Of a DNA stretch of 64,000 nucleotides, positions 17,175-62,225 are shown piece after piece. The stretch is from the NCBI RefSeq assembly GCF_002849595.1, contig NZ_NRQR01000005.1:1-64000 (forward strand), written 5' to 3'. The notes under the pieces were generated by a model. The model saw only the letters and a list, made by a program, of their open reading frames with translations. It made no database searches and had not been told where the DNA came from. Numbering within the stretch: the stretch's first letter is position 1; each line of letters starts with the position of its first letter. The stretch comes from Luteimonas rhizosphaerae. Lineage in GTDB: Bacteria; Pseudomonadota; Gammaproteobacteria; Xanthomonadales; Xanthomonadaceae. The translations under genes were made by a program, and so were the position numbers.

Positions 17175-18560
17175 TCAGTCCGCCTCGCGCCGCGGCACCG
17201 CACCCAGCTGGTCGAGGAAGTCGCGCCGCCAGGCATGGATGTCGTAGTCACGCAGCCGCGTGATCATCGACTGCCAGCGTTCGCGGCGCTCTTCGACCGG
17301 CATCTTCACCGCGGCCGCGATCGCATCGGCGACGCCGTCCCGGTCGAAGGGATTGATCAGCAGGGCCCCGTCGAGTTCGCGCGCCGCGCCGGCGAAGATC
17401 GACAGCACCAGCGCGCCCGGATCGTCGGGATCCTGCGCGGCCACGTATTCCTTGGCGACGAGGTTCATGCCGTCGCGCAACGGCGTCACCAGGCCGATGC
17501 GCGCCAGCCGGTAGAGCCCGGTCAGCGTCGCGTGCGGATACGTGCGGTTGACGTAGCGCACCGGGGTCCAGTCGGGATGCGCGTGGCCGCCGTTGATGTG
17601 GCCGGCGAACTGTTCGAGTTCGCGGCGCAACGCGCGGTAGCTGGCGACGCCGCCGCGCGACACCGGCGCGATCTGCAGGTAGGTCACCTTGTCCTGCAGG
17701 TCGGTGTGTTTTTCGAGAAAGCGCTCGAATCCGCGGAACCGCTCGGGCAGGCCTTTCGAGTAGTCCAGGCGGTCGACGCCGATCGCCAGCATGCGACCGT
17801 TGAGGCTCGCCTGCATGCGCTTGATCGACGGGATGCGCACCGCGCTCTGCGCCAGCGATTCCATCGATGCGGCATCGATACCGATCGGGAACGCCTCGGC
17901 GCGGACCTGGCGTCCGTCGTGGCTGCGCACTTCGCCGCGGCCCTTGACCTGGCCCCCGCCGAACAGGCGCATGTAGTCCTGGAACCGCTCGAGGTCGCGC
18001 TCGGTCTGGAAGCCGACGAGATCGTAGGCCGCCAGCGCGCCGAAGGTCTTCTCGTGGTTCGGCAGGCCGGCGACGATGTCCGCTGACGGAAACGGCACGT
18101 GCAGGAAGAAGCCGATGCGGGCGCGGACGCCGCGCTTGCGCAGCTCCTGCGCCAGCGGCAGCAGGTGGTAGTCGTGGACCCAGACGATGTCGTCGTCGCG
18201 CAGCCGCTTCGCCAGCTTCTCGGCGAACAGCGTGTTGACCCCGCGGTAGGCCGCCTGCGTGCCGGCGTTGTAGTCGACGAGGTCCAGGCGGAAGTGCAGC
18301 AGCGGCCACAGCGTGCGGTTGGAGAAGCCGTTGTAATAGCCCTCGTAGTCCTCGCGCGACAGGTCGACGGTGACGTAGTCGATGCCGTCGTGGTGCTGCT
18401 CGTGCACTTCGCCCGAGTGCGCGCGCGCGACCTTGCCGCTCCAGCCGAACCACAGGCCGCCGCTGTCGCGCAGCGCCGCATCGAGCGCGACCGCGAGGCC
18501 ACCGTTCTGGTTCGAACCCGGCAGCGCGACCCGGTTCGAGACGACGACGAGCCGGCTCAT
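17175..18560 (-). CDS. otsA: Alpha,alpha-trehalose-phosphate synthase (UDP-forming)
   Basis: GT20 enzyme joining UDP-glucose and glucose 6-phosphate into trehalose 6-phosphate, for osmotic and stress protection. The 461 residues include VVSNRVALP at the N-terminus, WFGWSG, VWVHDYHLLPL, FFLHVPFPS, GVDRLDYSKGLPER and the nucleotide-binding RDGMNLVAKEY. All key blocks are intact. The ATG at 18560 overlaps the TGA of the upstream GH15 gene by 4 nt (ATGA), so the start is secure and coupling is likely. It is the last gene of the otsB-GH15-otsA operon on the minus strand. Confidence 0.95.
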   Translation of the reverse strand: MSRLVVVSNRVALPGSNQNGGLAVALDAALRDSGGLWFGWSGKVARAHSGEVHEQHHDGIDYVTVDLSREDYEGYYNGFSNRTLWPLLHFRLDLVDYNAGTQAAYRGVNTLFAEKLAKRLRDDDIVWVHDYHLLPLAQELRKRGVRARIGFFLHVPFPSADIVAGLPNHEKTFGALAAYDLVGFQTERDLERFQDYMRLFGGGQVKGRGEVRSHDGRQVRAEAFPIGIDAASMESLAQSAVRIPSIKRMQASLNGRMLAIGVDRLDYSKGLPERFRGFERFLEKHTDLQDKVTYLQIAPVSRGGVASYRALRRELEQFAGHINGGHAHPDWTPVRYVNRTYPHATLTGLYRLARIGLVTPLRDGMNLVAKEYVAAQDPDDPGALVLSIFAGAARELDGALLINPFDRDGVADAIAAAVKMPVEERRERWQSMITRLRDYDIHAWRRDFLDQLGAVPRREAD

Positions 18561-20312
18561 CCGGCGTCCTGCCACGGACGCGACAGCCGCATCGCCGCCA
18601 TGATCAGGCCGACGTGCGAATACGTCTGCGGGAAATTGCCCCAGGGCTCGCCGTCCTCGAAGGCGAGGTCTTCCGACAGCAGGCCCAGGTGGTTGCGGCG
18701 CGAGAGCAAGGTCTCGAACAGCTGGCGCGCTTCGTCGCCGCGGCCGATCGACGCCAGCGCGTCGATGTACCAGAACGTGCAGATCGTGAAGCTGGTCTCG
18801 GGCGTGCCGAAGTCATCCGGCGTGACGTAGCGGAACAGGCCGTCGCCATGCCGCAGCGCCTTGCCGATCGCCTCGACGGTGCCGACGAAGCGCGGGTCGT
18901 CCGGCGCCACGAAGCCGAGGTCGGCGAGCAGCAGCAGCGACGCATCGAGGCGGTCGCCGCCGAAGGCATCGGCGAAGGTGCCGAGTTCGTCGTTCCAGGC
19001 CTCGTCCATGATCCGCGCACGGATCGCGGTCGCGCGGTCGCGCCAGTAGGACGCGCGCGCCTCGAGGTCCAGTTGGGTGGCGATCTTGCCGAGCCGGTCG
19101 CAGGCCGCCCAGCACATCACGGCCGAATAGGTGTGCACGTGCGCCTTGCCGCGGAATTCCCACAGGCCCGCATCGGGCTGGTCGTGGAGCTTCCAGGCGA
19201 GTTCGCCCAGCGGTTCGAGCTTGGCGAATGTCGCGCGGTCGCCACGGTGCTCCAGGCGCCGGTCGAAGAACAGCTGCGTGGACGCGAGCACGACGCTGCC
19301 GTAGGTGTCGTGCTGGCGCTGCACCCAGGCGAGGTTGCCGCGACGCACCGGGCCCATGCCGCGATAGCCGTCGAGGGCGGGCATCGTTTCCTCGGTCAGT
19401 TCGTGCTCGAAGCCGATGCCGTACAGCGGCTGCATGTCGCCGTCGTCGCTGACCGTCAGGTTGAAGATGTAGCGGATGTATTCCTCCATCGTGCGCGTCG
19501 CGCCGAGGCGGTTGAGCGCGCGCACGACGAACGCGGAATCGCGCATCCAGCAGTAGCGGTAATCCCAGTTGCGCTCGGTGTCGGCGGCTTCCGGGATCGA
19601 TGTCGTCATCGCGGCGATGATGCCGCCGCTCTCCTCGTACTGGCACAGCTTCAGCGTGATCGCGCTGCGGATCACCGCCTCCTGGAAGTCCAGCGGGATC
19701 GACAGGTAGCGCACCCATTCGCGCCAGTAACCCGTGGTCTGGTGCAGCGCCTCGCGGACGAAGGTGTCGATCGGCTGGGTCAGGGTTTCATCGGGGCCGA
19801 GGATGAAATGCAGGTCGCGATCCAGCACGAACGACAGGCCTTCGCGCAGTGCGCGCACCGGCATGTCGGTGGTCGTGGTTGCTGCCCCAGGTGGTCTCGG
19901 GCGCGCGTGCGCCCCAGTCGGCCAACGGGCGCAGCAGTACGCGGATGCGCGGGCTGCCCGACAGCAGCCGCACGCGGCGGGCCAGCATCACCGGCCGGTA
20001 GAAGCGGCCGTGCTGGCGCCAGCGCGGCGCGAAGTCGGTGATCTCGATCGCGCCGCCGTGGCGGTCGTGCAGCACGGTGCGCAGGATCGCGGTGTTCTCG
20101 AGGTAGTGCTGCTCGCTGCGGTCGAGGTCGTCGAGTTCGATCGCCCAGTCGCCGTGGCCTTGCTTCGGCGACAGCAGGGCGCAGAACGCGGGATCGCCGT
20201 CGAATGCCGGCAGGCAGGACCAAACCAGACGCGCCTGGGCATCGAACAGCGCACCGAAACTGCCGTTGCCGACGAGGCCGAGGTTCAGGCTGGGGGCGAG
20301 CGGCTGGGACAT
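18557..20312 (-). pseudogene. GH15 family glucoamylase/trehalase-like gene, frameshifted by a small internal deletion
   Basis: Encodes a GH15 (alpha/alpha)6-barrel hydrolase of the kind often found beside otsA and otsB; such members have been reported to act as trehalases or maltodextrin hydrolases. The first part starts at ATG 20312 (RBS AAGGAG at 20321-20326) and runs MSQPLAPSLNLGLVGNGSFG to TTWGSNH. The frame then changes near 19870-19880, and the rest continues from MPVRALREGLSFVLDRDLHF through NWDYRYCWMRDS to the stop. Comparison with the family suggests that about 12 residues (roughly 35 nt, such as the IRY...LRL stretch) are missing between SNH and TTDMPV, flanked by ACCAC repeats. An internal ATG at 19864 could yield the catalytic domain alone. 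The gene lies between otsB (5-nt gap) and otsA (4-nt overlap). It is either a real mutation or a sequencing or assembly fault. Confidence 0.85.
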
Positions 20313-20317
20313 GCGGA

Positions 20318-21094
20318 TCAGTCTCCTTGGGAAGTGGCGAGCCAGCGGCGCACCGCGGCGGGATCTCGCAGGCCGAAGCGGGCGGCGCTGCCGCCGCGGT
20401 CGCCGACGAGGATGCTCAGGCCGCCGTGGGCGTGGACGGCGGCGAAGCCGTGCTCGTCGGTGAGGTCGTCGCCGGCGAACACGGGCAGGCGACCCGCGAA
20501 CGGGGCCTCGTCGAGGAAGGCGAGGATTGCCGTGCCCTTGTCGGCGTGGTGTGGACGCAGTTCGACGACGTGGTCGCCGGGCTGCAGCTGGTAACCCGGC
20601 AACTGCGGCAACGCCTGTTCGGCGAAAGCGCGCAGCGCGGTCTCGGCTGCGGGCGCGCTGCGCCAGTGCAGGCCCAGCGCCGCGCCCTTGTCCTCGACGA
20701 CCGCGCCCGGGTAGCCGGCCGCCAGCCGCACGGCCTGCTCGCGCAGCGTGCCGAGCGCCGCCGGCGCGGCAGCGTCGTCGACCCGGCCACGCCGGCCGCG
20801 ACGTTCGACGCCGTGCAGGCCGGCCGCGAGGAAGCGCTCCGGTGCGAACAAGGTGTCGAGCGTCGCGATGCCGCGACCGCTGACCAGCGCCAGGGCACCA
20901 TCGAGGCGGTCGCGCTGGGCGCACAGCGTGGCGAGCAGGCCGTCGGGCACGACGACGGCATCGGGGCGGGCGGCGAATTCCAGCAGGCAGCCGTCGACGT
21001 CGAGGAACAGGGCCCAGTCGTCGGCCGGCGGGGGCGGCGCGGGGCGCGGCGACAGCGGCGGCGTGGCGGAAGATGCGTCGTGGGAATGGTGCAT
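20318..21094 (-). CDS. otsB: Trehalose-6-phosphate phosphatase
   Basis: HAD-superfamily phosphatase that releases trehalose from trehalose 6-phosphate made by OtsA. The 258 residues carry the nucleophile motif FLDVDGCLLEF (Asp32, acid/base Asp34), ALVSGRG, GLHGVERRG, VEDKGAALGLHW, a DKGTAI motif and the metal-binding VFAGDDLTDEHGF. The start is taken at 21094; upstream in-frame ATGs run into the divergent DCC gene region. The N-terminal 20 residues are Pro/Ser/Ala-rich and variable. It is first in the operon, 5 nt before the GH15 gene, and divergent from the DCC gene with 50 nt between starts. Confidence 0.93.
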   Translation of the reverse strand: MHHSHDASSATPPLSPRPAPPPPADDWALFLDVDGCLLEFAARPDAVVVPDGLLATLCAQRDRLDGALALVSGRGIATLDTLFAPERFLAAGLHGVERRGRRGRVDDAAAPAALGTLREQAVRLAAGYPGAVVEDKGAALGLHWRSAPAAETALRAFAEQALPQLPGYQLQPGDHVVELRPHHADKGTAILAFLDEAPFAGRLPVFAGDDLTDEHGFAAVHAHGGLSILVGDRGGSAARFGLRDPAAVRRWLATSQGD

Positions 21095-21144
21095 TGCAAC
21101 GTATCCTGTCGACGGCCGACGTAAATCGACGTGAATCCGATCCC

Positions 21145-21567
21145 ATGTCCAATGCCCTGCACACGCCACCTGCCGGACATGCCGTCATCGTCTTCGATGG
21201 CGTCTGCGTGCTGTGCAACGGCTGGGTGCGCTTCCTGCTGCGTCACGACGGCCGGCAGCAGTACCGCTTCGCCGCGATGCAGGACGCGCCCGGGCGCGCG
21301 CTGCTGGTCGCGCACGGGCTCGATCCGGACGATCCGGTCTCGTTCCTGATGGTGGACGGCGATGCGGCCTGGCACGACAGCGACGGCGTCATCGAGGTGC
21401 TGCGCCGGCTCGGTGGCCTCTGGCGCCTGGCCGTCGTGCTGCGCGTGCTGCCGCGTGGCCTGCGCGATGCGGGCTATCGCCTGCTCGCGCGCAGCCGCTA
21501 TCGCCTGTTCGGACGCCGCGCGAGCTGCATGCTGCCGCCGCCTGCGGCGCGCGACCGGTTTCTCTGA
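21145..21567 (+). CDS. DCC-family (DUF393) thiol-disulfide oxidoreductase-like protein
   Basis: A 140-residue protein with the DUF393 signature FDGVCVLCNGWV (Asp18, Cys21, Cys24), from which the family takes its DCC name. It also has the RFAAMQDAPGRALL and DSDGVIEVLRRLGG blocks expected further on. A thioredoxin-like redox role is predicted for the family but not proven. The ATG at 21145 is used. It is divergent from the trehalose operon; no functional link is evident. From 21568 to 21817 there is no supported gene. Confidence 0.85.
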   Translation: MSNALHTPPAGHAVIVFDGVCVLCNGWVRFLLRHDGRQQYRFAAMQDAPGRALLVAHGLDPDDPVSFLMVDGDAAWHDSDGVIEVLRRLGGLWRLAVVLRVLPRGLRDAGYRLLARSRYRLFGRRASCMLPPPAARDRFL

Positions 21568-21817
21568 CGTCGCACGCCGGCACGCGCGTGCCGGTCGCAT
21601 GCCGGGGGCGTTCGCATCCCGACGCGCCGACGGGACCCGCACCACGGCAGTGCGGTTTCGGTCGTCGTGTGTCCGGTTTGCAGGGGGCAGGATCGCCCGG
21701 CAGCCGTGCCCCTGACGCAGGCCGATCAGGCCGCGATCGCCGGCCCCGATGTCGCATCGCGGACCCGGGCGCCTTTTGGGAGAATGACGCTCCAACCGTC
21801 GCCACCGCGAGACTGCC

Positions 21818-24613
21818 TTGACCCTTCCCGCCCCGACCGACGCCCACGCCGAGCGCGATACCGAGCGCGTCAAACTGGCGCTGGCCGCCGGGGCGATCGT
21901 CGGCACGTGGTTCTGGGATGTGGCGCAGGACCGCGTGACGGTCGACGAAGCGCTCGCCCACGCGTTCGGCCTCGATCCCGCCGCGCCCCGGGACGGCTTG
22001 CCGCTGGACCGGATCCTGGCATCCGTCCACCCGGACGATGCGCCCGGCCTGACGGCGGCGATCGCCGACGCGGTCCAGCGCGGCGGTCGCTACGCGCACC
22101 AGTACCGCACCCGCGACGCCGACGGCCGCTATCGCTGGATCGAAGCGATCGGCCGCGTCGACCTGGACGCGCAGGGACATGCGGTCGACTTCGCCGGCGT
22201 GCTGATCGATGTCGACGACCGGCGACGGATCGAAGCGGAGCGCGACCAGGCGCAGACCCTGCTGCAGTCATTCGTGGATGCGGCGCCGGGCGTGGTCTAC
22301 GCCAAGGACCGGCAGGGCCGGTTCCTGATCGGCAATCGCGGCACCAGCGAGCTGATCGGCCGGCCGCCGGAGGCCTACATCGGACGCACCGACGCCGACG
22401 TGCTCGGCGATGCCGCGCAGGCCGCCGCGGTGATGGCGACCGACGAACGCGTCATGGCCAGCGACCGGTCGGAGCAGGTCGAGGAGGCAGTGGATTTCCC
22501 CGACGGACGGCGCGCCTGGTGGCTGTCGACCAAGGCGCCGCTGCGCGATGCCGCGGGCACGGTCGTCGGCGTCGTCGGCACCTCGCTCGACATCACCGAC
22601 CGCAAGGCGGCCGAAGCGCGGCATCTGGAGATCGAGGAGCGCTACAGGCTCGCGGCGAGCGCCACCAACGACGCGATCTGGGACTGGCGCATCGCCGACG
22701 GCCACGTCGTCTGGAACGAGGCGCTGGGCACGCTGTTCGGTCACGGCGAGACCGAGACCGATGCGGACTGGTGGCTCCAGCACATCCATCCCGACGACCG
22801 CGGCCGGATCGACGCCCGGATCCACGCGGTCATCGAGGGCGCGGGTTCGGTGTGGACCGGCGAATACCGCTTCCGTCGCGCCGACGGCAGTTACGCATCG
22901 GTGCTCGACCGCGGCACGGTGCTGCGCGACGCCGCCGGCGCACCGATCCGCATGATCGGCGCGATGCTCGACCTGTCGGCCAGCAAGGCCGCCGAGGCGG
23001 CGCTGGCGCAGAGCGAGGAGCGCCTGCGTCTGGCGACCGATGCCGGCGACATGGGCTTCTGGGACGTCGATCTGGTGCACGACGCGCTGATCTGGCCGCC
23101 GCGCACCAAGGCGATGTTCGGCATCTCGCCCGATGTCGAGGTGACGCTGCGTGATTTCTACGAGGGCCTGCACCCCGAGGATCGCGACGCCACCAGCGCC
23201 GCGTTCGCGGCGGCCGCCGATCCCATGCGCCGCGCGCTCTACGACGTGGAATACCGGACCATCGGCCGGGAAGACGGCGTGGTGCGCTGGGTCGCGGCCA
23301 AGGGCCGCGGCCTGTTCGAGGGCGACCGCTGCCTGCGCGTCGTCGGCGTGGTCGTCGACGTGACCGCGCGCAAGGCCGCCGATGCGCGGCTGCAGGAACT
23401 CAACGAGCAGCTGGAAAGCCGCGTGCTGGCCGAAGTCGCGGAGCGCACGCGGGTCGAGGACGCGCTGCGGCAGAGCCAGAAGATGGAAGCGGTGGGCCAG
23501 CTGACCGGCGGGATCGCCCACGACTTCAACAACATGCTGGCGGCGGTGATCGGCCCGCTGGACCTGCTGGCCTCGCGCCTCGGCGACAGCGCCGATCCGC
23601 GCACCCGGCGCTACATCGACACGGCGATCGACGGCGCCAGCCGGGCCGCCCAGCTCACCCAGCGCCTGCTCGCATTCTCGCGGCAGCAGCCGCTGCAGCC
23701 GGTCGCCGTGGATGCGAACCGGCTTGTCGCCGGCATGTCCGACCTGCTAGTGCATTCGCTCGGCGCCAGCGTGCGCCTGGACACGACGCTCGACCCGGCG
23801 CTGTGGTGCACGCACGTCGACGCCAACCAACTGGAAAACGTGATCCTCAACCTGGCGGTCAATGCGCGCGACGCGATGCCGGGCGGCGGCCGGCTGACCA
23901 TCGCGACCGCCAACCGCGCGATCGGTCCGGAGGCTGTCGCGGCGGCGGGCGTGCCGGCCGGGGAGTACGTGCGGATCACGGTGTCCGATACCGGCTGCGG
24001 CATGTCGGCGGACGTCATGGCGCGGGCCTTCGATCCGTTTTTCACCACCAAGACCGTCGGCAAGGGCACCGGGCTCGGCCTGTCGCAGGTCTACGGGTTC
24101 GTCCGCCAGTCCACCGGCCACGTGCGGCTGCAGTCGGTGGAAGGGCAGGGCACGACGGTGCAGCTCTACCTGCCACGACTCGCCGCCGGCCTCGAGGTGC
24201 CTGCGCCAACGGAGGCCGCAGCGGCGCCACCGGTCCGCGGCGCGCAGCAGCTGGTGCTCGTCGTCGATGACGATCCGGCGGTGCGCCAGTTCTCCGGCGA
24301 CGCGTTGGCCGAGCTCGGCTACCGGGTGCTGTCGGCCGATGGCGCGGCGACCGCCCTGCCGCTGCTGGACGCGCATCCGGAGACCGCGCTGCTGTTCACC
24401 GATGTCGTGATGCCCGACGTCAACGGCCGCCAGCTCGCCGACGAAGCACTGAAACGGCGCCCGGCACTGAAGGTGCTGTTCGCGACCGGCAACAGCCGCA
24501 ATGCCCTGGTCCGCGACGGCGTGCTCGATCCCAGCGTCCAGCTGATTGGCAAGCCGTTCACCGTCGACGAACTGGCAGCGCGGGTCGGCGCGGTGCTGGC
24601 CGAGCCGCGCTGA
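21818..24613 (+). CDS. Multi-PAS hybrid sensor histidine kinase with C-terminal receiver
   Basis: Cytosolic hybrid kinase of 931 residues with no membrane segment. Four PAS/PAC units lie in order at roughly 15-135, 145-265, 280-395 and 405-520 (HPDD or HPED followed by EYRxRxxDGxxxW patterns). A short coiled-coil linker leads to a HisKA domain with phospho-acceptor His568 in [11 protein letters not shown]. The ATPase domain has [17 protein letters not shown] and GKGTGLGLS. The receiver (about 812-930) has its phospho-acceptor Asp862 in FTDVVMPDV and the conserved Lys in GKPF. The likely start is TTG at 21818, because no in-frame ATG exists before PAS1. There is no partner regulator nearby, so it is an orphan. 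The PAS ligands are unknown. Confidence 0.88.
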
Positions 24614-24640
24614 TCGCGCTACCGGGTGGCGTGCGGCGCA

Positions 24641-25354: not shown

Positions 25355-25445
25355 GTGCCACTCCGGGAAGGGAAAGGCGCACCCTAGGCCGGCCCGTGCA
25401 AGCGACGGGTGACGGGCACGGCAGGATCCCGTCAAGGCGGCGCCG

Positions 25446-25473
25446 CTTGCAACACACCGCTTCGACCGCATCT
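25446..25473 (+). promoter_or_regulatory. Candidate sigma-32 heat-shock promoter of clpB
   Basis: CTTGCAA, 14 nt, then CGCATCT. This resembles the sigma-32 consensus (CTTGAAA and CCCCAT-like boxes) at proper spacing, 51 nt before the clpB start. The gene's known heat-shock control elsewhere supports it; the match is partial. Confidence 0.4.
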
Positions 25474-25523
25474 GGAAGACATGGCCGGCGACGCCGGCCC
25501 CCAATTTCCCGAGGATTTTCCCG

Positions 25524-28831: not shown

Positions 28832-28836
28832 GCGCG

Positions 28837-32168: not shown

Positions 32169-33433
<1,265 letters not shown>

Positions 33434-37398: not shown

Positions 37399-38391
<993 letters not shown>

Positions 38392-38398
38392 GTGGCGC

Positions 38399-39224
38399 GT
38401 GGTGGCGACGGTCGCGACCTCGCATGCGCATGGCGTGCCCAGCACCGCGGGCGGGCCGGTCGAGGTGAACGACGCGGCGCCCACATCCGGACTCGTGCCG
38501 ACGCTCGCCGAACTGGTGGGGCTGCGCGCCCTGGCGCGTGGTCGCTCCGGCGCGCGTCGCGCGACCGGCGGCGTACGCCAGCAGGCGCGGGCCCCGCAGC
38601 GCGGACACGGCATGGAATATGCCGAGTCGCGCGATTACGTCGCCGGCGACGACGCCCGCCACATCGACTGGCGCGTCACCGCGCGGACCGGACGCGCGCA
38701 CACCAAGACGTTCCAGGCCGAGCGCGAGCGGCTGAGTCTGATCGTCGCCGATACCGCGCCGGCCCTGTATTTCGGCACGCGGCAGCGGTTCAAGTCGGTG
38801 CAGGCGGCGCGCGCCGGTGCGATCGCGGCGTGGTCGGCGATCGGGGAGGGCGACCGGATCGCCGCGCTGCGCGGCACGATCGCCGAGCCGCCGGTGCCGC
38901 CCGGCAGCGGCCCGCGCGGCGCGCTGCGCGTGCTCGATGCGCTGGTCCGCTGGTACACCGTGCCGCCGCGCGATGATGCGGGCCTCGATGTCGCACTGGA
39001 TCACGCCAGGCGGCTGCTGCGTCCGGGCTCGCGCCTGCTGGTGCTGGCCGACGCGGCGTCTCGGTGACGCCGTGCAGCGGGCGCGTTGGCGGCAGGCGTT
39101 CGGCGCGCCCGTCGAGCAGGCGCTCGCGTTGTTGCAGGCGCGCGGGGTGCGCGCCGCGATGCTGTCGACCGACACGCCCGGCGACGACTGGCTGCCGTTG
39201 TTCGGCCGGCCGAAGGTGCGCTGA
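38399..39224 (+). pseudogene. DUF58 domain protein gene, frame interrupted by an internal deletion
   Basis: DUF58 proteins (vWA-like) are the usual partners of MoxR. The first part contains VPTLAELVGLRALARG, GMEYAESRDYVAGDDARHID, WRVTARTGRAHTKTFQAERE and ends at LLVLADAAS, where the frame meets TGA at 39065. The C-terminal part (LGDAVQRARWRQAFGAPVEQ, ALALLQARGVRAAML, WLPLFGRP) continues one frame over to the TGA at 39222. Family members have roughly 40 more residues between these blocks, so a deletion of about 130 nt at 39058-39061 is more likely than a simple 2-nt loss. The start is uncertain: GTG 38399, just after the moxR stop, or GTG 38465. Confidence 0.8.
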
Positions 39225-47116: not shown

Positions 47117-47145
47117 GTCCGGCTGCGGCAGCGATCCGGCGGGCA

Positions 47146-47154
47146 TGGGACAAT
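47146..47154 (+). promoter_or_regulatory. Candidate extended -10 of tkt
   Basis: TGGGACAAT, 39 nt before the tkt ATG; no clear -35. Confidence 0.3.
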
Positions 47155-47193
47155 GCGCGACTCCCGCCATCGCCGCCGACTCCAGTCCAGTCC

Positions 47194-49135
47194 ATGACCC
47201 AGCCGACCCGTCGCGAACTCGCCAACGCCATCCGTTTCCTCGCCATCGACGCCGTCGATGCCGCCAACTCCGGCCATCCGGGCATGCCGATGGGCATGGC
47301 CGACATCGCCGAGGTGCTGTGGAACGACCACCACAGCCACAACCCGGGCAATCCGCACTGGATCAACCGCGACCGCTTCGTGCTGTCGAACGGCCACGGC
47401 TCGATGCTGCAGTACGCGCTGCTGCACCTGTCGGGCTACGACCTGCCGCTCGACGAGCTGAAGAACTTCCGCCAGCTGCACAGCCGTACCGCCGGCCATC
47501 CCGAACGGCACGAAACGCCCGGCGTCGAGACCACGACCGGCCCGCTGGGCCAGGGCTTCGCCAACGCCGTCGGCTTCGCGCTGGCCGAGAAGCTGCTCGC
47601 GCAGCGCTTCAACCGCCCCGGCTTCGATGTCGTCGATCACCACACCTGGGTGTTCCTCGGCGACGGCTGCCTGATGGAAGGCGTCTCGCATGAGGCCGCG
47701 TCGCTGGCGGGCACGCTGGGCCTGGGCAAGCTCGTCGCGTTCTGGGACGACAACCGCATCCCGATCGACGGCAACACCGCCGGCTGGTTCACCGACGACA
47801 CCCCGGCGCGCTTCGAGGCCTACGGCTGGCGCGTGATCCGCGACGTCGACGGCCACGACGCCGATGCGATCTCTCGCGCGATCGACGCCGCCAAGGCCCA
47901 CGACGGCCGGCCGGTGCTGGTCTGCTGCCGCACGACGATCGGCTTCGGCTCGCCGAACCGCGCCGGCAAGGAATCCGCGCACGGCGCCGCGCTGGGCCAG
48001 GCCGAATCCGACGCGACCCGCGTGGCGCTCGCTTGGCCGCACGGCCGCTTCGAGGTCCCGCAGCCGATCCGCGACGCGTGGCTGGCCACCGATGCCGGCG
48101 CCAGGCGCGAGGCGACGTGGCAGGCGCTGTTCGACGCCTACGCCGCGGCGCACCCGGAACTCTCGGCCGAACTGCTGCGCCGCACGCGCGGCGAACTGCC
48201 GGCCGACTTCGCGCAGGACGCCGATGCGTTCATCGCCAAGCTGCAGGCGGAAGGCCCGACGATCGCGTCGCGCAAGGCCTCGCAGCTGTCGATCGAAGCC
48301 TTCGCGCCGTTGCTGCCGGAGCTGATCGGCGGCTCGGCCGACCTCGCGCATTCCAACCTGACCCTGTGGAAGGGCAGCACGTCGGCCGCGACCACGGACC
48401 GCGATCGCCAACGGCCTTGCGCTGCACGGCGGCTTCATCCCGTTCGATGCGACCTTCGTGGTCTTCAGCGACTACGCGCGCAACGCCGTGCGCATGGGCG
48501 CGCTGATCCCCGCGCACGCGATCCACGTCTACACCCACGATTCGATCGGCCTCGGCGAAGACGGCCCGACCCACCAGCCGGTCGAGCATCTCGCATCGCT
48601 GCGCTACATCCCGAACAACGACGTGTGGCGTCCCTGCGATGCGGTCGAGTCGGCGGTCGCGTGGAAGTCGGCGATCACCCGCCAGGACGGCCCGAGCTGC
48701 CTGGTGTTCTCGCGCCAGAACCTCGCGCACCAGGCCCGCGACACGGCCCAGGTCGCCGACATCGCGCGCGGCGGTTACGTGTTGAAGGACTCGGCAGGCA
48801 CGCCCGAAATCATCCTGATTGCGACCGGCTCGGAAGTCGGGCTGGCGATGCAGGCGGCCGAGCAGCTCGGCGACACCGTGCGCGTGGTGTCGATGCCGTC
48901 GACGGACGTGTTCGACCGCCAGGACGCGGCCTATCGCGAGTCCGTGCTGCCGGACGGCGTGCGCAAGCGCGTTGCAATCGAAGCCGGCGTTACCCCGTTC
49001 TGGCGTGCGTACGTCGGCCTGGACGGCGCCGTCATCGGCATCGACAGCTTCGGTGCGTCGGCGCCGGCGGACAAGCTGTATGCCCATTTCGGCATCACCG
49101 TCGACAAGGTCGTCGAGGCAGGGAAGGCACTCTGA
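47194..49135 (+). pseudogene. tkt: Transketolase gene with an internal deletion and frameshift
   Basis: Transketolase moves two-carbon units between sugar phosphates in the pentose phosphate pathway with thiamine diphosphate. The first part (about 400 residues) is intact: [26 protein letters not shown], the diphosphate motif [20 protein letters not shown] and [17 protein letters not shown]. At about 48396-48402 the sequence jumps to [18 protein letters not shown] in another frame and then runs normally to the stop ([34 protein letters not shown]). About 60 nt are missing, estimated from normal family length. The lost piece is the GNY...GVREFGM block, which holds the glutamate that activates the cofactor. 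As written the gene cannot make an active enzyme. ATG 47194 is used. Confidence 0.92.
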
Positions 49136-51880: not shown

Positions 51881-52112
51881 GCGCGGAGCATACGCACGAC
51901 GACGTGAATAGGCGCGAGCGTGCGCGTCGCCACGGGCGTGCGCGTCGCCACGGCCGGCGATGGCAGCGCGTGCGGCCGGACACGGCATCGCCGCTGCGTC
52001 TGTTCCTGGCGCGACGGCCGGAGTGCGGGCCTTCGGGTCACTCCGGGACGGGGTGCATTGCATCACGGCTGCACGCGCGTGCTCGACGCCCGTCCGGTCA
52101 TGGCGCCCGGAC

Positions 52113-52664: not shown

Positions 52665-52727
52665 GCGGATGACCGGAGGACGGGGCTGCGATTGCCGCAG
52701 GTCGGCGGTGAACGTCGCGTCGCGCGC

Positions 52728-54070: not shown

Positions 54071-54076
54071 GCGCGG

Positions 54077-54861
54077 TCAGCGGATCGTGAAGCCGTGCGC
54101 GCGGAAGATCGCCGAGGCGGCATCGCCATCGAGCCAGCGCACGAAGGCGGCGGCCTGCGGATGCCGGCTCGCGGCGACCCGCGCGACCGGATAGACGATC
54201 GCCGGGTGGCTGTCTTCCGGGAACGTCGCCAGCACCTTGACCCGCGGCTCGGCGCGCGCATCGCTGCCGTAGACCACGCCCAGCGGCGCTTCGCCGCGCG
54301 CGACCAGCACCAGCGCCGAACGCACGCTGTCGGATTCGGCGATGCGCGGCTGCAGGGCGGTCCAGCTGCCGAACGACACGAAGGCCGCCTTCGCGTACTT
54401 GCCTGCCGGCACGCTGGCCGTCAGTGCCAGCGACAGGCGCCCGCGCGGACCGAGCAGCGGCAACAGGTCGCTGCGTGCATCGAGCCGGAACGGCTGCGCG
54501 CGACTGCGCGCCGGGGCGACCAGCACCAGGGTGTTGCCGAGCAGATCGCGGCGCGACGCCGGATCGATGAGCCGGCGCTGCTGCAGCCAGTCCATCCAGT
54601 CTGCCGGGCCAGCGCGGAACTCGCCGCGTACGACACCCGCAACGGCTGGCCGGTGTCCTGGCGGTAGCGCGCGGCGGCCGCGTCCATCGATTCCTTGAGG
54701 CTGGCGGCGGCGAACACGGTCAGCGGGGCGGCGGCGTCGGCGGCGCGGACGGGCAGAACGCGCGCCGTCGCCACCAGCAGCGCGGCCAACGCCAGCAGGC
54801 GCAGCGCGGCGCGCGTGAGCGCGCGGGCTCGCGGCGTCGGCATGACGGTCGGGCTGCGCAT
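54077..54861 (-). pseudogene. modA: Molybdate-binding protein gene with an internal deletion and frameshift
   Basis: Periplasmic substrate-binding protein of the molybdate importer. The signal peptide (ending PVRAA) and the start [16 protein letters not shown] run on to [12 protein letters not shown]. At about 54598-54604 the sequence jumps to [20 protein letters not shown] in another frame, then continues normally ([24 protein letters not shown]) to the stop. The family has an IEQGAPADVFISAD-type segment at the gap, which carries ligand-binding residues. About 50 nt are missing. The rest of the operon is intact, so this is either recent damage or an assembly error. ATG 54861 lies 3 nt after the preceding gene. 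Confidence 0.88.
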
Positions 54862-54864
54862 GCG

Positions 54865-55428
54865 TCAGGGCGCCACGATGACGGTGATGGCGACGACCTG
54901 GGACACGCCGCGTGCGGCGCGGCTGTCGTCCGCGACCACCAGGCGCGGCGCGCCGGCTGCGGCGTCCGAGGGCCCCCCCTCGCAGCGGTCGACCAGATAC
55001 ACGCGGCGGTGGCCGAGCGTGGGATCGAGTTCGCCCAGCGAGAACACCACGCGGTCGCCGTCGCGTCCCGTGACCAGCACGTAGCGCGTCAAGTGCGCGC
55101 CGGCCAGCGGCGCCCCCGGCACGACGCCGCTGGCGCGCAGCAGGGCGAACAGCGACGTGCCGGCGCAGTCGAGCGTCGCGCCGCGCACCGTCGCCTGCAC
55201 CGGCTCGCGCGAAAGGCGCGCCCGCGTGTCCGGATCCAGCGGCACGACGACAGGCGATGCGAGCACCGGTGCGCGCGGCGCCGATGCGCGCAGTGTCGGG
55301 TCGCGGTCGAGCGTCGATGCCACCGGCGCGGGAGCGGGTGCCGGCACCGGCACGGTCGCGCAGCCGGCCAGCGCCAGCAGCAGCGCGAGGGCCGGCACGC
55401 GAGCGGGCGCGTGGCAATGGATTGGCAT
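54865..55428 (-). CDS. Lipoprotein with a molybdopterin-oxidoreductase-like domain (SUOX-type fold, inferred)
   Basis: A 187-residue predicted lipoprotein: signal and lipobox LALAGC (Cys about 23), a Pro/Ala/Val linker to about residue 65, then a domain with VQATVRGATLDCAGTSLFAL, VVPGAPLAGAHLTRYVLVTG, VVFSLGELDPTLGHRRVYLV, and PRLVVADDSRAARGVSQVVA. The order (G-D-x-x-V, S-x-x-E-x-D-P, L-V-x-x-D-x-x-x-A-R) resembles the sulfite-oxidase-type molybdopterin-binding domain, although the usual cofactor cysteine is uncertain (Cys in LDCAG is a candidate). It is the first gene of the modABC operon, 3 nt before modA, which supports a molybdenum link. The function is inferred, not known. Confidence 0.6.
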   Translation of the reverse strand: MPIHCHAPARVPALALLLALAGCATVPVPAPAPAPVASTLDRDPTLRASAPRAPVLASPVVVPLDPDTRARLSREPVQATVRGATLDCAGTSLFALLRASGVVPGAPLAGAHLTRYVLVTGRDGDRVVFSLGELDPTLGHRRVYLVDRCEGGPSDAAAGAPRLVVADDSRAARGVSQVVAITVIVAP

Positions 55429-55525
55429 CAGGGGACGCGGATCGCAGGCATGCGACGCAGCCTAAACGCGCGCCGCGCACGACGCACGTGAACCGCGGCC
55501 GGTCCGGCGCAGGATCGGGGCTGCG

Positions 55526-56335
55526 TCAGGGGACGGCCGGCGGATCGAGCGTCGCGTTCAACAGCTGCGCCAGGCGCGCACCGGCGTCGCGCAACTGCTG
55601 TTCGGCCAGCGGCAGATGGGTGTCGACATAGTCGTCGCCGATGCGGGCGCGGCGCGGATAGACGCCCGGCCGCACCGCGATCGCGCAGGCGGCTTCCGCC
55701 CAGGCGCCCGCCTGCGGCGGCAGTGGTCCGGCAACGGCGGGCGCCGGCGTCAACGCCTGCAGCCGCGTCACCCAGGCCGATTCCGGCAGCGACTGCGTAT
55801 TGAGCATGCCGCTGTCCCAGAACGCGTGCAGGTTGGTGCCGCGCTTGCGGTAGTTGATCTGGCGATCGTTGCCGCCCTTGTCGTGGCCGTAGCCCGCGTG
55901 CATCGGCTGGTGCACGTCGCCGACGAAGTGCACGACGAATTTCAGCGCCTGCAGGCGATCGGCCTTCGAGCGCGTGCGGTCGCCGAGGATCGCGCTCTGG
56001 GTGCGGATCGCCTCGACCACGCAGTCGCCGCCGGGGCAGTCGCGTGCGGCGTCGTAACGGCACGCGGGCGCGATGTTGACGTAGTGCCACGGCGCCGAGC
56101 GTCGGCCGAGGTCGGGATCGTTGGCGCGCAGCGCGTCCGCCCAGGTCGCGATGCCGGTCAGCGTCGGCTCGGGTTCGCCGGCCAGCAGCGCATCGACCTG
56201 CGCGCGGGTCGACGGCGTGAGGTCGGGCGTCGCCAGCCCGGCGACGAGCCGGTGGCCCATGCCGCCCCACGCGGCGGCGGAGGTGGAGACGGCGGCGGAA
56301 ACGAACAGGACGGTGACACACAGGAATCGGCGCAT
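55526..56335 (-). CDS. S1/P1 nuclease family protein
   Basis: Secreted or periplasmic zinc-dependent nuclease of 269 residues, preferring single-stranded nucleic acids in the characterised members. A signal peptide (1 to about 21) is followed by WGGMGHRLVAGLA; the mature N-terminal Trp and the His supply zinc ligands. Further ligand blocks are IATWADALR, PWHYVNIAP, FVVHFVGDVHQPMHAGY and NLHAFWDSGML. The trinuclear zinc set therefore appears complete. ATG 56335 gives a clean signal. It lies between ompW and the mod operon on the same strand, with gaps of 48 and 97 nt. Confidence 0.9.
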   Translation of the reverse strand: MRRFLCVTVLFVSAAVSTSAAAWGGMGHRLVAGLATPDLTPSTRAQVDALLAGEPEPTLTGIATWADALRANDPDLGRRSAPWHYVNIAPACRYDAARDCPGGDCVVEAIRTQSAILGDRTRSKADRLQALKFVVHFVGDVHQPMHAGYGHDKGGNDRQINYRKRGTNLHAFWDSGMLNTQSLPESAWVTRLQALTPAPAVAGPLPPQAGAWAEAACAIAVRPGVYPRRARIGDDYVDTHLPLAEQQLRDAGARLAQLLNATLDPPAVP

Positions 56336-56383
56336 GCGGCGATTCTACCGGCCGCCTGTGCCGGGCCGTGATGCACGCTGTGC

Positions 56384-57004
56384 TCAGAACGTCCGGACGT
56401 AGGCCGCGCCGTACACCAGCGGATCGAGGTGCGCGGTGCCGAGAGGGACGCCATCGACGCGCACGTCGGTGTCGATGTCGATCCAGCGGGCATCGAGGCG
56501 GAGCCGGCTGCCGGCGCCGAGCCGGATGTCGAGGCCGGCATGCGCGGCCAGGCCCCAGGCATCGCGGAGCTGCAGTCGCGTCCCGGCGAGCGCGCCGGTC
56601 GTGTCTTCGCCGAAGAACGTCGTGGAGTTCACGCCGATGCCGAACAGTGGCGACACCGTACCGCCGCGGTGGCCGTGGTACTGCAGCGACAGGGTCGGCG
56701 GCAGGTGCCGCGTGCTGCCGACCCTGCCGAGCCCGTCGACGGCGATGTCGTGCCGGAACGGCAGCGCCGCGAGCAGCTCGAGGCCCAGACCGTCGCGGAC
56801 GAAGTATTCCGCTGCGATCGTCGGCCGGGTGCTGCCGCCGATCGACAGCGGCAGGCTGCCGCCGGCGAGGCGCCCGTTGCCCGACCTGGGATCGACATGG
56901 TGGGCGCCGACGGCGAGGGTCCAGTCGCCGGCGGACTGGGCGTGGACCGGCAGGCAGGCGCCGGTGGTCGTGGCGGCGAGAAACGCGAGGGACAGCAGGC
57001 GCAT
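56384..57004 (-). CDS. ompW: OmpW family outer membrane protein
   Basis: Small eight-stranded beta-barrel outer membrane protein of 206 residues. It has a signal peptide (1-22, ending PVHAQ), WTLAVGAHHVDPRSGNGRLA near the N-terminus, PLFGIGVNSTTFFGED in the middle, and LDARWIDIDTDVRVDGV near the C-terminus, ending in YGAAYVRTF with a terminal Phe, as needed for barrel assembly. OmpW proteins form hydrophobic channels and are often linked to stress or metal response. The ATG at 57004 is chosen from the signal peptide; the RBS is weak. It is divergent from gapA, with 245 nt between starts. Confidence 0.9.
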   Translation of the reverse strand: MRLLSLAFLAATTTGACLPVHAQSAGDWTLAVGAHHVDPRSGNGRLAGGSLPLSIGGSTRPTIAAEYFVRDGLGLELLAALPFRHDIAVDGLGRVGSTRHLPPTLSLQYHGHRGGTVSPLFGIGVNSTTFFGEDTTGALAGTRLQLRDAWGLAAHAGLDIRLGAGSRLRLDARWIDIDTDVRVDGVPLGTAHLDPLVYGAAYVRTF

Positions 57005-57130
57005 GGAGAGGATCCGTCGGAGAGTGGCCGCAGTGTCGGCATCCCGGCGCGCGGGCGCCTTGATCGGAATCAATGCGCGCCGGCCGCCGTGCGCGCCTGC
57101 GGCCAGCGTCGGGCGCCGTCAGGACGCGCC

Positions 57131-57139
57131 TGCTAAAAT
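57131..57139 (+). promoter_or_regulatory. Extended -10 promoter element of gapA
   Basis: TGCTAAAAT, a good extended -10 (TGn plus TAAAAT), 110 nt before the gapA ATG. No clear -35, which is usual for the extended form. Confidence 0.5.
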
Positions 57140-57183
57140 GCGCGGGTTGCCGGGACCGGCGCCGCGCGTCGAGCCTGGCGTGA

Positions 57184-58140
<957 letters not shown>

Positions 58141-58149
58141 TGAGACCGG

Positions 58150-58177
58150 AGCCCCGCGCAAGCGGGGCTTCTTTTTT
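58150..58177 (+). terminator. Rho-independent terminator after gapA
   Basis: An 8-bp stem AGCCCCGC/GCGGGGCT (58150-58157 with 58162-58169), a GCAA loop, then TCTTTTTT. It separates gapA transcription from pgk. Confidence 0.92.
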
Positions 58178-58324
58178 GGCCCGGGCGACACCGGCGCCGG
58201 GGTTGCTGGCATCGCGTTGTCGGAGCGCGCGCCTGCAGACGTTTGCCTGCCTGCGGGCGCAGCGCGGACAATGGGCGACGGACGCACACGCGTTCTCCTT
58301 CCGACTCCAGCGAGCCCAGTGCCC

Positions 58325-58399
58325 ATGACCATCGTCCGCATGACCGACCTCGACCTCTCCGGCAAGCGCGTGCTGATCCGGCAGGGCGAGCCGGTCTGA
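58325..58399 (+). CDS. Mini-ORF copying the N-terminus of phosphoglycerate kinase (pgk fragment)
   Basis: A 24-residue [23 protein letters not shown] then GEPV and a stop. The first 20 residues equal the PGK start at 58536 except Ser for Ala at position 12. The DNA differs mainly at silent positions (ACC/ACT, ATC/ATT, GAC/GAT, CGC/CGT, CTG/TTG), so it is an old partial duplication or a leader, not a recent copy. After GGCAG the similarity stops. It could be a remnant or a translated leader; there is no evidence of a product. Two hairpins follow before pgk. Confidence 0.6.
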
Positions 58400-58404
58400 G
58401 CGGA

Positions 58405-58454
58405 CTGCCGTCAGGCAGACCGCGCGGCGAGCGCCCGGCCATGGATGGCCGGGC
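58405..58454 (+). promoter_or_regulatory. Two hairpins between the pgk-like mini-ORF and pgk
   Basis: CTGCC-GTCA-GGCAG (58405-58418) and a perfect 10-bp palindrome GCCCGGCCAT-GG-ATGGCCGGGC (58433-58454). There is no T-run after either, so neither is a standard terminator. Position after a short ORF and before pgk resembles a leader region; regulation is only inferred. Confidence 0.4.
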
Positions 58455-58535
58455 AGGTGTCTGCGACTGCAGTCATGTCACGCCAGGGATGGCATGGCGC
58501 ACATCATTCCGATCATTCAAGAGAGTCCAGAGCCC

Positions 58536-59711
58536 ATGACTATTGTCCGCATGACCGATCTCGACCTGGCCGGCAAACGTGTGTTGATCCGGCAGGACCT
58601 CAACGTTCCCGTCGACGGCGGCAAGGTCACCTCCGACCAGCGCATCACCGCATCGCTGCCGACGTTGAAATACGCGCTGGAGAAGGGTGCGGCGGTCATG
58701 GTGACCTCGCACCTCGGCCGGCCGAAGGAAGGCAGCTGGAGCGAGGCCGATTCGCTCGCCCCCGTAGCCGCGCGGCTGTCCGAACTGCTCGGCATCGACG
58801 TGCCGCTGGTGCGCGACTGGGTCGACGGCGTCGAGGTCGCGCCGGGACAGCTGGTGCTGCTCGAGAACTGCCGCATGAACATCGGCGAGAAGGACGACGA
58901 CGAGGCGTTGTCGAAGAAATACGCCGCCTTGTGCGACGTGTTCGTCATGGATGCCTTCGGCACCGCGCACCGCGCGCAGGCGTCGACGCATGGCGTGATC
59001 CGCCATGCTGCGACCGCCGCGGGCGGCCCGCTGCTGATGGCCGAACTCGATGCGCTGGCCAAGGCGCTCGACGCGCCGGCGCGGCCGTTGCTGGCGATCG
59101 TCGCGGGCAGCAAGGTGTCGACCAAGCTCGAACTGCTGTCGTCGCTGGTCGGCAAGGTCGACCAGCTGATCGTCGGCGGCGGCATCGCCAACACCTTCAT
59201 CGCCGCGCTGGGCCACGGCGTCGGCAAGTCGCTGGTCGAGACCGACCTGCTCGATACCGCGACGCAGATCATGGCCGACGCCAGGGCACGCGGCGCCGAG
59301 ATTCCGGTGCCGACCGACGTCGTCGTCGCATCTGCGTTCGCCGCCGATGCGCCGGCCACCGTCAAGGCAGTGGATGCGGTCGACGCCGACGACATGATCC
59401 TCGACATCGGCCCGGACACCGCCAGGCGCTACGCCGCGATGATCAAGGAGGCCGGCACCGTGGTCTGGAACGGTCCGGTCGGCGTGTTCGAGTTCGACGC
59501 GTTCGGCAAGGGCACGGAGGCGCTGGCGCGCGCGATCGCGTCGTCGAAGGCGTTCTCGATCGCCGGTGGCGGCGACACGCTGGCGGCCGTCGACAAGTAC
59601 GGCATCGCCGATGACGTGTCCTACATCTCCACCGGCGGCGGCGCGTTCCTCGAATTCCTCGAAGGCAAGACGCTGCCGGCGGTCGCGGCGCTCGACGCCC
59701 GCGGCGCGTGA
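58536..59711 (+). CDS. pgk: Phosphoglycerate kinase
   Basis: Transfers phosphate from 1,3-bisphosphoglycerate to ADP in glycolysis. The 391 residues are a normal length. [15 protein letters not shown] (substrate-binding Arg/Asp/Asn), [55 protein letters not shown], and the nucleotide site [13 protein letters not shown] with [13 protein letters not shown] are all intact. ATG 58536 is the family start; the upstream in-frame ATG at 58494 gives a non-family extension. The stop overlaps the next gene's GTG by 4 nt. It is preceded by a diverged copy of its own 5' end. Confidence 0.96.
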
Positions 59712-60349
59712 CCCAGGCGCTGTTCTTCGATCTCGACGGCACGCTGATCGATTCGGAGCCGGGCATCCTCGGCGGTATCGCGTATACGCTCGAGGCGCTG
59801 GGGCATCCGCCGTTGCCCCGCGAGACGTTGCTGCCGTGGATCGGCCCGCCACTGCGCGACAGCTTCGATGCGCTGTTCGATGGCGATCGTGCCCGCGCCG
59901 AACGGGCGGTCGCGCTGTATCGCGAACGTTACGACGCGCGTGGCTGGCGCGAGCATTCGGTCTACACCGGCATGCCCGAGGCGATCGCCACGCTGCAGGC
60001 CGCCGGCCACCGGTTGGCGGTCGTCACGTCGAAGAACGAGGGCGCCGCGCGGCGCATCGTCGAGGCGCTGCCGTTCGGCGCGGCCTTCGAGACCGTGGTC
60101 GGCGCCAGCGACGACGGCACGCGCCGCTACAAGCGCGAACTGATCGCCGAGGCGCTGTCGCGGCTCGCGCTCGACGCGACGGGCGCGGTGATGATCGGCG
60201 ACCGGCGTTACGACATGGAAGGCGCGCGCCAGCACGGCATGCGCGCCGTGGGCGTGCTTTGGGGCTTCGGCGCCGAAGCGGAGTTGCGCGAGGCGGGCGC
60301 CGCGGAAACCGTCGCGTCGCCAGCGGCGCTGGCGGCGGCGCTCGCCTGA
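59708..60349 (+). CDS. HAD-superfamily phosphatase (phosphoglycolate phosphatase-like)
   Basis: A 213-residue HAD hydrolase: nucleophile motif [14 protein letters not shown] (residues 6-19, Asp8 and Asp10), a helical cap (about 20-85), AVVTSKNEG (Thr/Ser and Lys of motifs II and III region), [10 protein letters not shown] and the metal-binding [17 protein letters not shown]. It resembles Gph and PpaX-type enzymes. The GTG at 59708 overlaps the pgk stop (GTGA), so it is co-translated with pgk. Phosphoglycolate phosphatases can also remove 4-phosphoerythronate and 2-phospholactate, by-products of GAPDH and pyruvate kinase. The location between pgk and pyk fits such a repair role, but the substrate is unproven. 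Confidence 0.88.
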
Positions 60350-60734
60350 ACGCGGCAGGACGCTGTGCGCGCCTGAACGTCGCAGGCGTCGGGGTCGGCG
60401 GGCGCGCGTGTCGGTGCGATCGCTGACATGGAGCGCAATGCCGATGCCGCAAACCGGCGCGGCCTCTGCTTCCCGCACGCGGCATTGCTGCCGCGAATGC
60501 GCGTGCCGGCATCGACTCCTGGCCTCTGGTCGTGAGGGATGGCCGGCGATGCACTGCCGCCCGAGTCGCCCGGAGCATCGCTTCGCGTGCCTCGACCGCG
60601 CGTGGCCCGCGGCATTGCGCCGCGCGCGGAATTTCGCAGTAAGCTTCGGACACGGCGCGCCGGGGGATCGGGGCGCCGTTTCCATGTTGCCCTGCAACGT
60701 GCGCATGACTACCGGTGGACAATAAGATCTGGGG
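60350..60734. other. Intergenic region upstream of pyk
   Basis: About 385 nt with no supported gene. The last 60 nt before pyk are less GC-rich and include TTGCCC at 60691 and GACAATAAGA near 60717, which may hold the pyk promoter. No clear terminator or repeat was found. Confidence 0.4.
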
Positions 60735-60740
60735 ATGACC

Positions 60741-62225
60741 ATGAACGAACTCACGACCGTTGCGCCGCATCGTCGCCGCACCCGCATTCTCGCCACGCTG
60801 GGCCCCGCGACCGACGCGCCCGGCGTGCTCGACGCCCTGATCGCCGCCGGCGTCAACGCGGTCCGCCTGAACTTTTCCCACGGCGACCCGGAATCGCAGC
60901 GCGTGCGCGCCGAGGCGGTCCGCGATGCCGCGCAGCGCGCGGGCGTCGAGGTCGGCATCCTCGCCGACCTGCCGGGCCCGAAGATCCGCATCGAGAAGTT
61001 CGCCGACGGCAAGGTCCAGCTGGCAGCCGGCGCGCGTTTCGACCTGCTGGCCGATCCAGCGGCGCCTCCGGGCACCGTGGACCAGGTCGGCGTCAGCTAT
61101 CTCGGCCTGCCGCACGACGTGGCGCCCGGCGACGTGCTGCTGCTCGACGACGGCCTGGTGCAGCTGCAGGTGGCGGCGGTCGACGGCGCGCGCATCGTCA
61201 CGACGGTGCTCAACGACGGAGTGCTGTCCAACCGCAAGGGCCTGAACAAACAGGGTGGCGGCCTGTCGCTGGGCGCGCTGACCGATCACGATCGCGACCT
61301 GATCAAGGTCGCGGCCGACATCGGCGTGGATTTCATCGCCGTGTCGTTCTGCCGCAACGCGGCCGACATGGAGGAGGCCCGCTCGATCGCCCGCGCGCAC
61401 GGCTGCGACGCCGCGCTGGTGTCGAAGATCGAGCGCACCGAGGCGATTGACAACCTGGCCGAGATCATCGACGCCAGCGACGTGGTGATGGTCGCGCGTG
61501 GCGACCTGGGCGTGGAGATCGGCGATGCCGAGCTGCCGGGCCTGCAGAAGAAGATCATCCGCGAGTCGCTGGCGCGCAACAAAGTGGTCATCACCGCGAC
61601 GCAGATGCTGCAGTCGATGGTCGAAAGCCCGATGCCGACGCGCGCCGAGGTGCTCGACGTCGCCAACTCGGTCATCGACGGCACCGACGCGGTGATGCTG
61701 TCGGCCGAGACCGCGGCCGGCGCCTACCCGGTGCGCGCCGTCGAGGCGATGGCGCGGATCTGCGTCGGCGCCGAGCGCCAGTTCGCCCACGACACCGATT
61801 TCAGCAAGGCCCAGCGCAACCTCGAGCGCGCCGACCAGGCGATCGCGATGGCGGCGATGTTCCTGTCCGAGCACATCGGCGTCGGCGCGATCGTGGCGAT
61901 GACCGAATCCGGCGGTACCGCGCGCTATCTGTCGCGCTTCCGCGGCGGTGCGCTGATCTATGCGTTCTCGCGCCACGACGGCGCCCGCCGGCGCATGACG
62001 CTGATGCGCGACGTGTTCCCGTTCGACTACGACAGCCGCGGCCAGACCCCGCGCGAAGCGGCGCGCGGCAGCGTGCGTCTGCTGGTCGAGGGCGGCTTCC
62101 TCGGCTCCGGCGAGCGCGTGGTGTTCACCAGCGGCGAGCACATGGAAACCCACGGCGCGACCAATACCCTGCGCCTGCTGCAGGTCGGCGAAGACGGGCG
62201 CGCCGAAGGCCTCGGCGAGCTGTAA
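60741..62225 (+). CDS. pyk: Pyruvate kinase
   Basis: Last step of glycolysis: phosphoenolpyruvate and ADP to pyruvate and ATP. The 494 residues are a normal length. Conserved blocks are RTRILATLGPATDAPG, VRLNFSHGDPE, ILADLPGPKIRIEKF, the Mg/substrate site LTDHDRDL followed by VDFIAVSFCRNAADM, VSKIERTEAIDN, VMVARGDLGVEI and TQMLQSMVESPMPTRAEV with DAVMLSAETAAG. The C-terminal domain is complete, with SGGTARYLSRFR. ATG 60741 has GGGGA five nt ahead; ATG 60735 is an alternative. It is downstream of pgk and HAD, likely with its own promoter. Confidence 0.95.
   Translation: MNELTTVAPHRRRTRILATLGPATDAPGVLDALIAAGVNAVRLNFSHGDPESQRVRAEAVRDAAQRAGVEVGILADLPGPKIRIEKFADGKVQLAAGARFDLLADPAAPPGTVDQVGVSYLGLPHDVAPGDVLLLDDGLVQLQVAAVDGARIVTTVLNDGVLSNRKGLNKQGGGLSLGALTDHDRDLIKVAADIGVDFIAVSFCRNAADMEEARSIARAHGCDAALVSKIERTEAIDNLAEIIDASDVVMVARGDLGVEIGDAELPGLQKKIIRESLARNKVVITATQMLQSMVESPMPTRAEVLDVANSVIDGTDAVMLSAETAAGAYPVRAVEAMARICVGAERQFAHDTDFSKAQRNLERADQAIAMAAMFLSEHIGVGAIVAMTESGGTARYLSRFRGGALIYAFSRHDGARRRMTLMRDVFPFDYDSRGQTPREAARGSVRLLVEGGFLGSGERVVFTSGEHMETHGATNTLRLLQVGEDGRAEGLGEL

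Follow-up and report, generated by a model that had tools for sequence, protein, structure and literature searches.

Six genes in the window, that is, bases 1-64,000 of contig C34 (181,410 nt, in a genome of 3.64 Mb and 34 contigs), have lost short internal stretches of sequence, and breaks of the same kind recur over the sampled third of the genome. These breaks are almost certainly errors of the deposited short-read assembly and not real gene loss. Their junctions coincide far more often than expected with matches to the Illumina P5 oligo, and since nothing would make a living genome break at the sequence of a synthetic oligo, this coincidence points to an assembly artefact. The likeness to P5 is very probably involved in their origin, and the oligo itself suggests that the platform was Illumina.

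Results

Six lesions in the window

The window was compared with sequences of five relatives of the same genus: G031, the closest in synteny, and G008, G007, G010 and G009, whose stretches are syntenic with it only in patches. Gene splits were sized by tblastn of the relatives' open frames against the window, using two to five relatives per gene. An earlier note on this DNA had described five genes with short frame-shifting deletions, and all five lesions are present at the places it gave: each gene consists of two pieces in differing frames with bases absent between them, whereas two to five relatives have the orthologue intact (Table 1). In the DNA alignments listed, every one of these genes has one single loss, with ordinary similarity on either flank. 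The losses had been estimated at 35-135 nt, which is nearly right, that of DUF58 alone being longer. No second copy of gapA was found in the genome at E 0.001, copy number having been checked for gapA alone. Among named matches for this gene, Luteimonas sp. XNQY3 ranked first (96% identity), ahead of Xanthomonas and others, which makes Luteimonas the probable genus.

A sixth lesion, in a TonB-dependent receptor gene, came from an indel scan of 107,459 aligned bases in the window and parts of five of the seven other stretches tried. The scan is not exhaustive, as it required two relatives; gapA escaped it, and so did the lesions already known on contigs C4 and C15. The five losses first described are indeed not multiples of three, but the sixth is in frame, and the claim that the frame is never kept owes something to ascertainment. 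Exact matches to P5 at junctions of the window are listed in Table 1; none of at least 7 nt was found at the modA junction, and a P5 match is likewise absent from the TonB-receptor junction.

Table 1. Broken genes and P5 matches at their junctions. Positions refer to the window, except for the M13 peptidase gene.
Feature	Position	Strand	Loss and basis
TonB-dependent receptor gene	8653..11031	-	96 nt, in frame, at about 10206
GH15 (glucoamylase-like), broken, 5' limit approximate	18557..20321	-	35 nt, junction 19874/19875 (G031, G008 alignments); PF00723 on C-terminal piece
TCGGTGGTCG on + strand, reverse complement of P5, 10 nt exact, GH15 junction	19866..19875	-	
DUF58 gene, broken	38389..39222	+	146 nt (block ends of both G031 and G008), junction near 39060, give or take about 10 nt; PF01882 on N-terminal piece
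TCTCGGTG, P5 match, 8 nt exact, DUF58 junction	39059..39066	.	
tkt (transketolase), broken	47145..49135	+	47 nt (four relatives; one reading 50), junction near 48398; PF00456 on N-terminal piece
GCGACCAC, P5 match, 8 nt exact, immediately left of tkt junction	48388..48395	+	
modA (molybdate-binding protein), broken	54080..54823	-	46 nt (four relatives), junction near 54600; PF13531 on both pieces
gapA, broken	57250..58121	+	133 nt, junction 57978/57979 (G031, G008, G009, G010), 142 by the G007 alignment; PF00044, PF02800
TCGGTGGTCGC on + strand, P5 match, 11 nt exact, gapA junction	57970..57980	-	
M13 peptidase gene, two losses	C15:32.1k and 32.5k (stretch L243, about 12079 and 12532)		17 nt and, relative to G008, 124 nt

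Breaks in the genome and in its relatives

The frequency of such breaks was estimated with a seven-state, three-periodic frame model trained jointly on the genome itself and its relatives. An event was counted when the frame switched on the same strand and the upstream frame remained open for more than 40 nt beyond the switch. The minimum piece was first set at 150 nt, which caught three of the five lesions, and was cut to 100 nt so that gapA was admitted, the relatives still yielding none. With these settings we detected 26 breaks in 1,156,603 nt, or 32% of the genome (6,000 nt of contig C31 are counted twice and contain no break), which amounts to about one per 44 kb, or about 22 detectable breaks per Mb of the sampled sequence. 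The same detector returned no break in 600,000 nt of the five relatives (193 switches) and none in a further 320,000 nt of G031 and G008, for 920 kb of five relatives overall. Breaks are spread over 58 bins in a manner that fits a random distribution (variance/mean 1.19, p = 0.14) and the window holds four of the 26. The 40-kb stretch that the earlier note had set apart is accordingly not special, and the sixth loss lies outside it. As to the choice of sequence, 19 of the 20 stretches of one set and eight of the nine stretches outside C34 in another were picked around sites of the motif TCSGTGGTCG; a further 20 were picked without regard to it and contain eight of the 26 breaks. The detector misses DUF58, which was added by hand to give 27 lesions, and addition of the in-frame loss at 10206 gave the set of 28 used in several tests below.

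Fourteen losses could be sized against relatives, three of them approximately (C15:7.1k, C15:11.2k and C4:478.7k). Thirteen are not multiples of three and one is in frame, as seen through a detector biased to frame breaks; an in-frame loss is to be expected of random lengths. The missing stretches measure some 17-146 nt. Pfam naming of 30 pieces, seven of which have no family, placed htpG, ahcY, maeB, an SBF transporter, PhoR, an M13 peptidase, TonB receptors, molybdopterin enzymes and others among the broken genes, so that central and dispensable genes are affected alike. The M13 peptidase gene has two losses about 450 nt apart.

P5-like sequence at the junctions

The earlier note had mentioned TCSGTGGTCG as a weak common feature of some junctions. 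The motif is there, but it proved to be the strongest clue of all and not a weak one: it is the core of the Illumina P5 oligo, to which TCGGTGGTCG belongs. The count that had been proposed as a check gave 35 occurrences of the motif genome-wide, and 26 of the pattern written backwards. Five of the 35 sites lie on a lesion, two of these lesions being new (C10:75936-75945 and C4:486726-486735); no break was detected at the remaining 30, one of which falls where the frame model finds no coding sequence.

We then scored exact P5 matches at the 28 junctions. With five junctions repositioned by hand beforehand, and those without an aligned relative placed by the frame model with an error of up to 10-20 nt, a match of at least 8 nt lies within 13 nt of 12 junctions, where 0.82 are expected (p = 8e-12), and a match of at least 9 nt is found at nine (0.21 expected). 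None of 500 dinucleotide shuffles of P5 equalled the 9-nt count, and reversed P5, taken as a control, gave 0 of 28. The excess is also found in the stretches picked without regard to the motif (5 of 8 junctions, 0.23 expected) and outside contig C34 (8 of 22, 0.65 expected). Various segments of the oligo are seen (TCGGTGGTCG, GATCTCGGT, ACGGCGACC and TCTCGGTG), and lesions without GTGGTC have P5 8-mers at 4 of 20 (0.50 expected, p = 0.0014). At the remaining 16 junctions no P5 match reaches 8 nt. A de novo k-mer test on 27 junctions, for which P5 was not consulted and two of the five repositionings were already in place, ranked GTGGTCG as top 7-mer (8 of 27 against 0.32 expected, Bonferroni 6e-6) and GGTGGTCG, which is the same 8-mer as CGACCACC, as top 8-mer (6 of 27 against 0.09 expected). 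These two repositionings likewise underlie the scoring of P5 with mismatches and the GGWC and TGGTC counts given below.

Among control oligos, those of Nextera, Ion Torrent and MGI each matched at none of the 28 junctions at 9 nt or more; at 8 nt they matched at 2, 0 and 2, against 1.25, 0.41 and 0.63 expected. Among the remaining Illumina oligos, P7 matched at 0, read-1 at 0 and read-2 at 1 of 28, both at 8 nt or more and at 9 nt. At 7 nt, P7 was found at 4 (1.01 expected) and read-2 at 3 (0.97 expected), and the three together at 8 of 28 against 2.96; sites resembling P7, read-1 and read-2 are scarce in a genome so GC-rich. Other Illumina adapters are thus weakly enriched at 7 nt.

Several other candidates were set aside. 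A GGWC edge motif was weaker than GTGGTCG. The string ATGCGGAC, not a recognised oligo, is present at 3 of 27 junctions (C15:11161, C4:478744 and C4:448922; 0.04 expected) but fails correction as a second junction motif (Bonferroni 0.2). Scoring 61-nt windows by local alignment to Illumina oligos was uninformative, since four of five attained a score that 7.5% of random windows attain as well.

Intact P5-like sites and contig ends

The proportion of sites that are broken increases with the length of the P5 match from 7 to 11 nt: 0 of 4801 at 7 nt, 3 of 1309 at 8, 5 of 357 at 9, 2 of 70 at 10 and 2 of 12 at 11. Only 9 of the 439 sites with a match of 9-11 nt are broken, all 11 sampled sites with at least 12 nt are intact, and 73 sites with a P5 score of 12-16 including mismatches carry no lesion. 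Likeness to P5 is neither sufficient for a break nor cleanly graded in its effect.

A P5 match of at least 8 nt occurs in none of the outer 30 nt of 25 contig starts (two of which are N) and 18 ends among the 34 contigs. Many contig ends are in DNA that is repeated or of extreme GC. Six pairs of them have a 25-mer in common, for example the end of C15 and the start of C16, or the end of C14 and the start of C19; a seventh pair is N against N. Breaks between contigs thus look ordinary in origin, which the internal lesions do not.

Anatomy of the joins

The left edge of a join and the relatives' sequence before the right edge have mostly 0-1 base in common, with a maximum of 3 at C15:32.1k, the relatives' sequence standing in for the isolate's own missing bases. 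The 200-nt flanks of 27 lesions have a GC fraction of 0.696, against a background of 0.697. The P5-like string is retained at the junctions. Eight lesions have both a match of at least 8 nt and an aligned relative, and in seven of them the string precedes the loss when the contig is read from left to right, the exception being DUF58, whose junction is uncertain; read by the oligo's own direction the count is five of eight. This left bias (one-sided binomial p = 0.035, computed by hand on junctions that the author placed within the freedom of the alignments) is suggestive only, and hints at a repair step running from left to right along the contig.

Discussion

Several observations together argue for false joins and against pseudogenisation, as the earlier note had proposed: the breaks recur, they affect central genes, 920 kb of relatives contain none and their junctions are linked to a synthetic oligo. 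We propose that reads over P5-like genomic sites would be under-represented or mishandled, leaving thin places in the coverage; candidate causes are the filtering of adapters and a cross-reaction with P5 while libraries or clusters were amplified. A gap-closing or scaffold-merging step might then join the flanks without the missing bases and with little or no overlap. We put forward any particular step by which the likeness acts as plausible but tentative.

One version of this chain is over-zealous adapter trimming, in which reads resembling P5 would be cut, coverage would vanish and the gap would be misclosed. It accounts for P5 being the sole enriched oligo at 8 nt or more among those tested, and for a rate of breakage that climbs from 8 to 11 nt. 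Against it stand the 11 intact sites of at least 12 nt, the 73 lesion-free sites that score 12-16 with mismatches, the 30 of 35 TCSGTGGTCG sites without detected break, and the survival of the P5-like string itself, which trimming alone should remove. Plain over-trimming does not fit well, and we regard this explanation as possible but doubtful.

Alternatively, Illumina reads could fail at GGTGGTC in the manner known for GGCNGG-type motifs, the likeness to P5 being accidental. Illumina coverage is indeed reported to drop at CCNGCC/GGCNGG motifs, immediately downstream of GGCNGG, the reads being lost by quality trimming (PMC4872057). The resemblance is that a short GC-rich motif marks a sharp, directional loss of reads; the difference is that the motif described there is another one, whereas here the assembly itself lacks the bases and the motif is part of P5. 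TGGTC does lie within 8 nt of 8 of 27 junctions (1.05 expected), and among close variants of GTGGTCG the less P5-like CTGGTCG is broken at 2 of 1216 sites (0.41 expected). However, GCGGTCG and GTGGTCA are broken at 0 of 1590 and 0 of 175 sites, and lesions lacking GTGGTC are nevertheless enriched in P5 8-mers that lack it too, which makes a failure peculiar to this motif unlikely.

The earlier note had attributed the lesions to contig ends falsely joined over a few bases that they have in common in GC-rich DNA; on this reading TCSGTGGTCG would be a coincidence. Such joins would explain losses that ignore the frame in unrelated genes, the sampled sequence has 69.8% G+C and one join does have 3 bases in common. 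Yet the overlap of 0-1 base at most joins, judged on the relatives' sequence, does not support shared bases as the driver, the average GC of the flanks does not support local GC richness as the trigger, and the P5 enrichment persists in stretches picked without regard to the motif. We consider this mechanism very improbable.

True short deletions accumulated in the strain and inactivating its genes deserve hardly any credence: the bases are absent from a deposited sequence rated 100% complete with 0.06% contamination, but the losses strike central genes including gapA without a second copy, are spread in a way compatible with chance, have no counterpart in the relatives and follow a synthetic oligo. 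Pseudogene decay would involve tolerable losses followed by further decay; here the flanks align normally in the alignments listed, and gapA is among the broken genes.

An origin in the assembly has further parallels in published work on short-read processing. Rigorous read filtering may lower coverage in short regions (PMC3334598), though in the accessible part of that paper the statement concerns low-quality read tails and adapter-containing reads, not genomic likeness to adapters. The A5 pipeline combines an adapter screen, scaffolding and repair of misassemblies, and broken coding sequences served there as a measure of quality (PMC3441570). It is similar in that adapter-like reads are screened before scaffolding and repair; it differs in that its description, as far as the excerpt available extends, makes no claim on P5-like genomic sites. 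Among the matches listed in a literature search, none reported P5-like genomic sites as a cause of deletions or misassembly.

Taken at face value, the deposited sequence would lead its users to infer falsely that genes of glycolysis, the pentose phosphate pathway, the methyl cycle and chaperones have been lost. Extrapolation to the whole genome gives some 80 falsely broken genes, and since the assembly is rated 100% complete all the same, completeness scores are blind to such errors. None of the five sampled relatives has breaks of this kind. It is conceivable, though we would not wager on it, that genomic sequence resembling P5 systematically weakens short-read assemblies and seeds small blunt deletions in GC-rich genomes, in which the P5 core is frequent. 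If P5-like sites did err elsewhere, false pseudogenes would stand in public records, and a P5 k-mer test would flag the assemblies concerned.

A minor observation concerns pgk, which is intact at 58494-59711 of the window (PF00162) and is preceded by a partial copy of its own start at 58305-58399. This copy is not among the assembly lesions. It has a frame of 24 codons with a pgk-like beginning that ends in a stop. G008 has the start of pgk once, aligning to both copies; the alignments of G007 and G010 follow the duplicated layout. The partial copy could have arisen by local duplication long ago, or it could be a leader.
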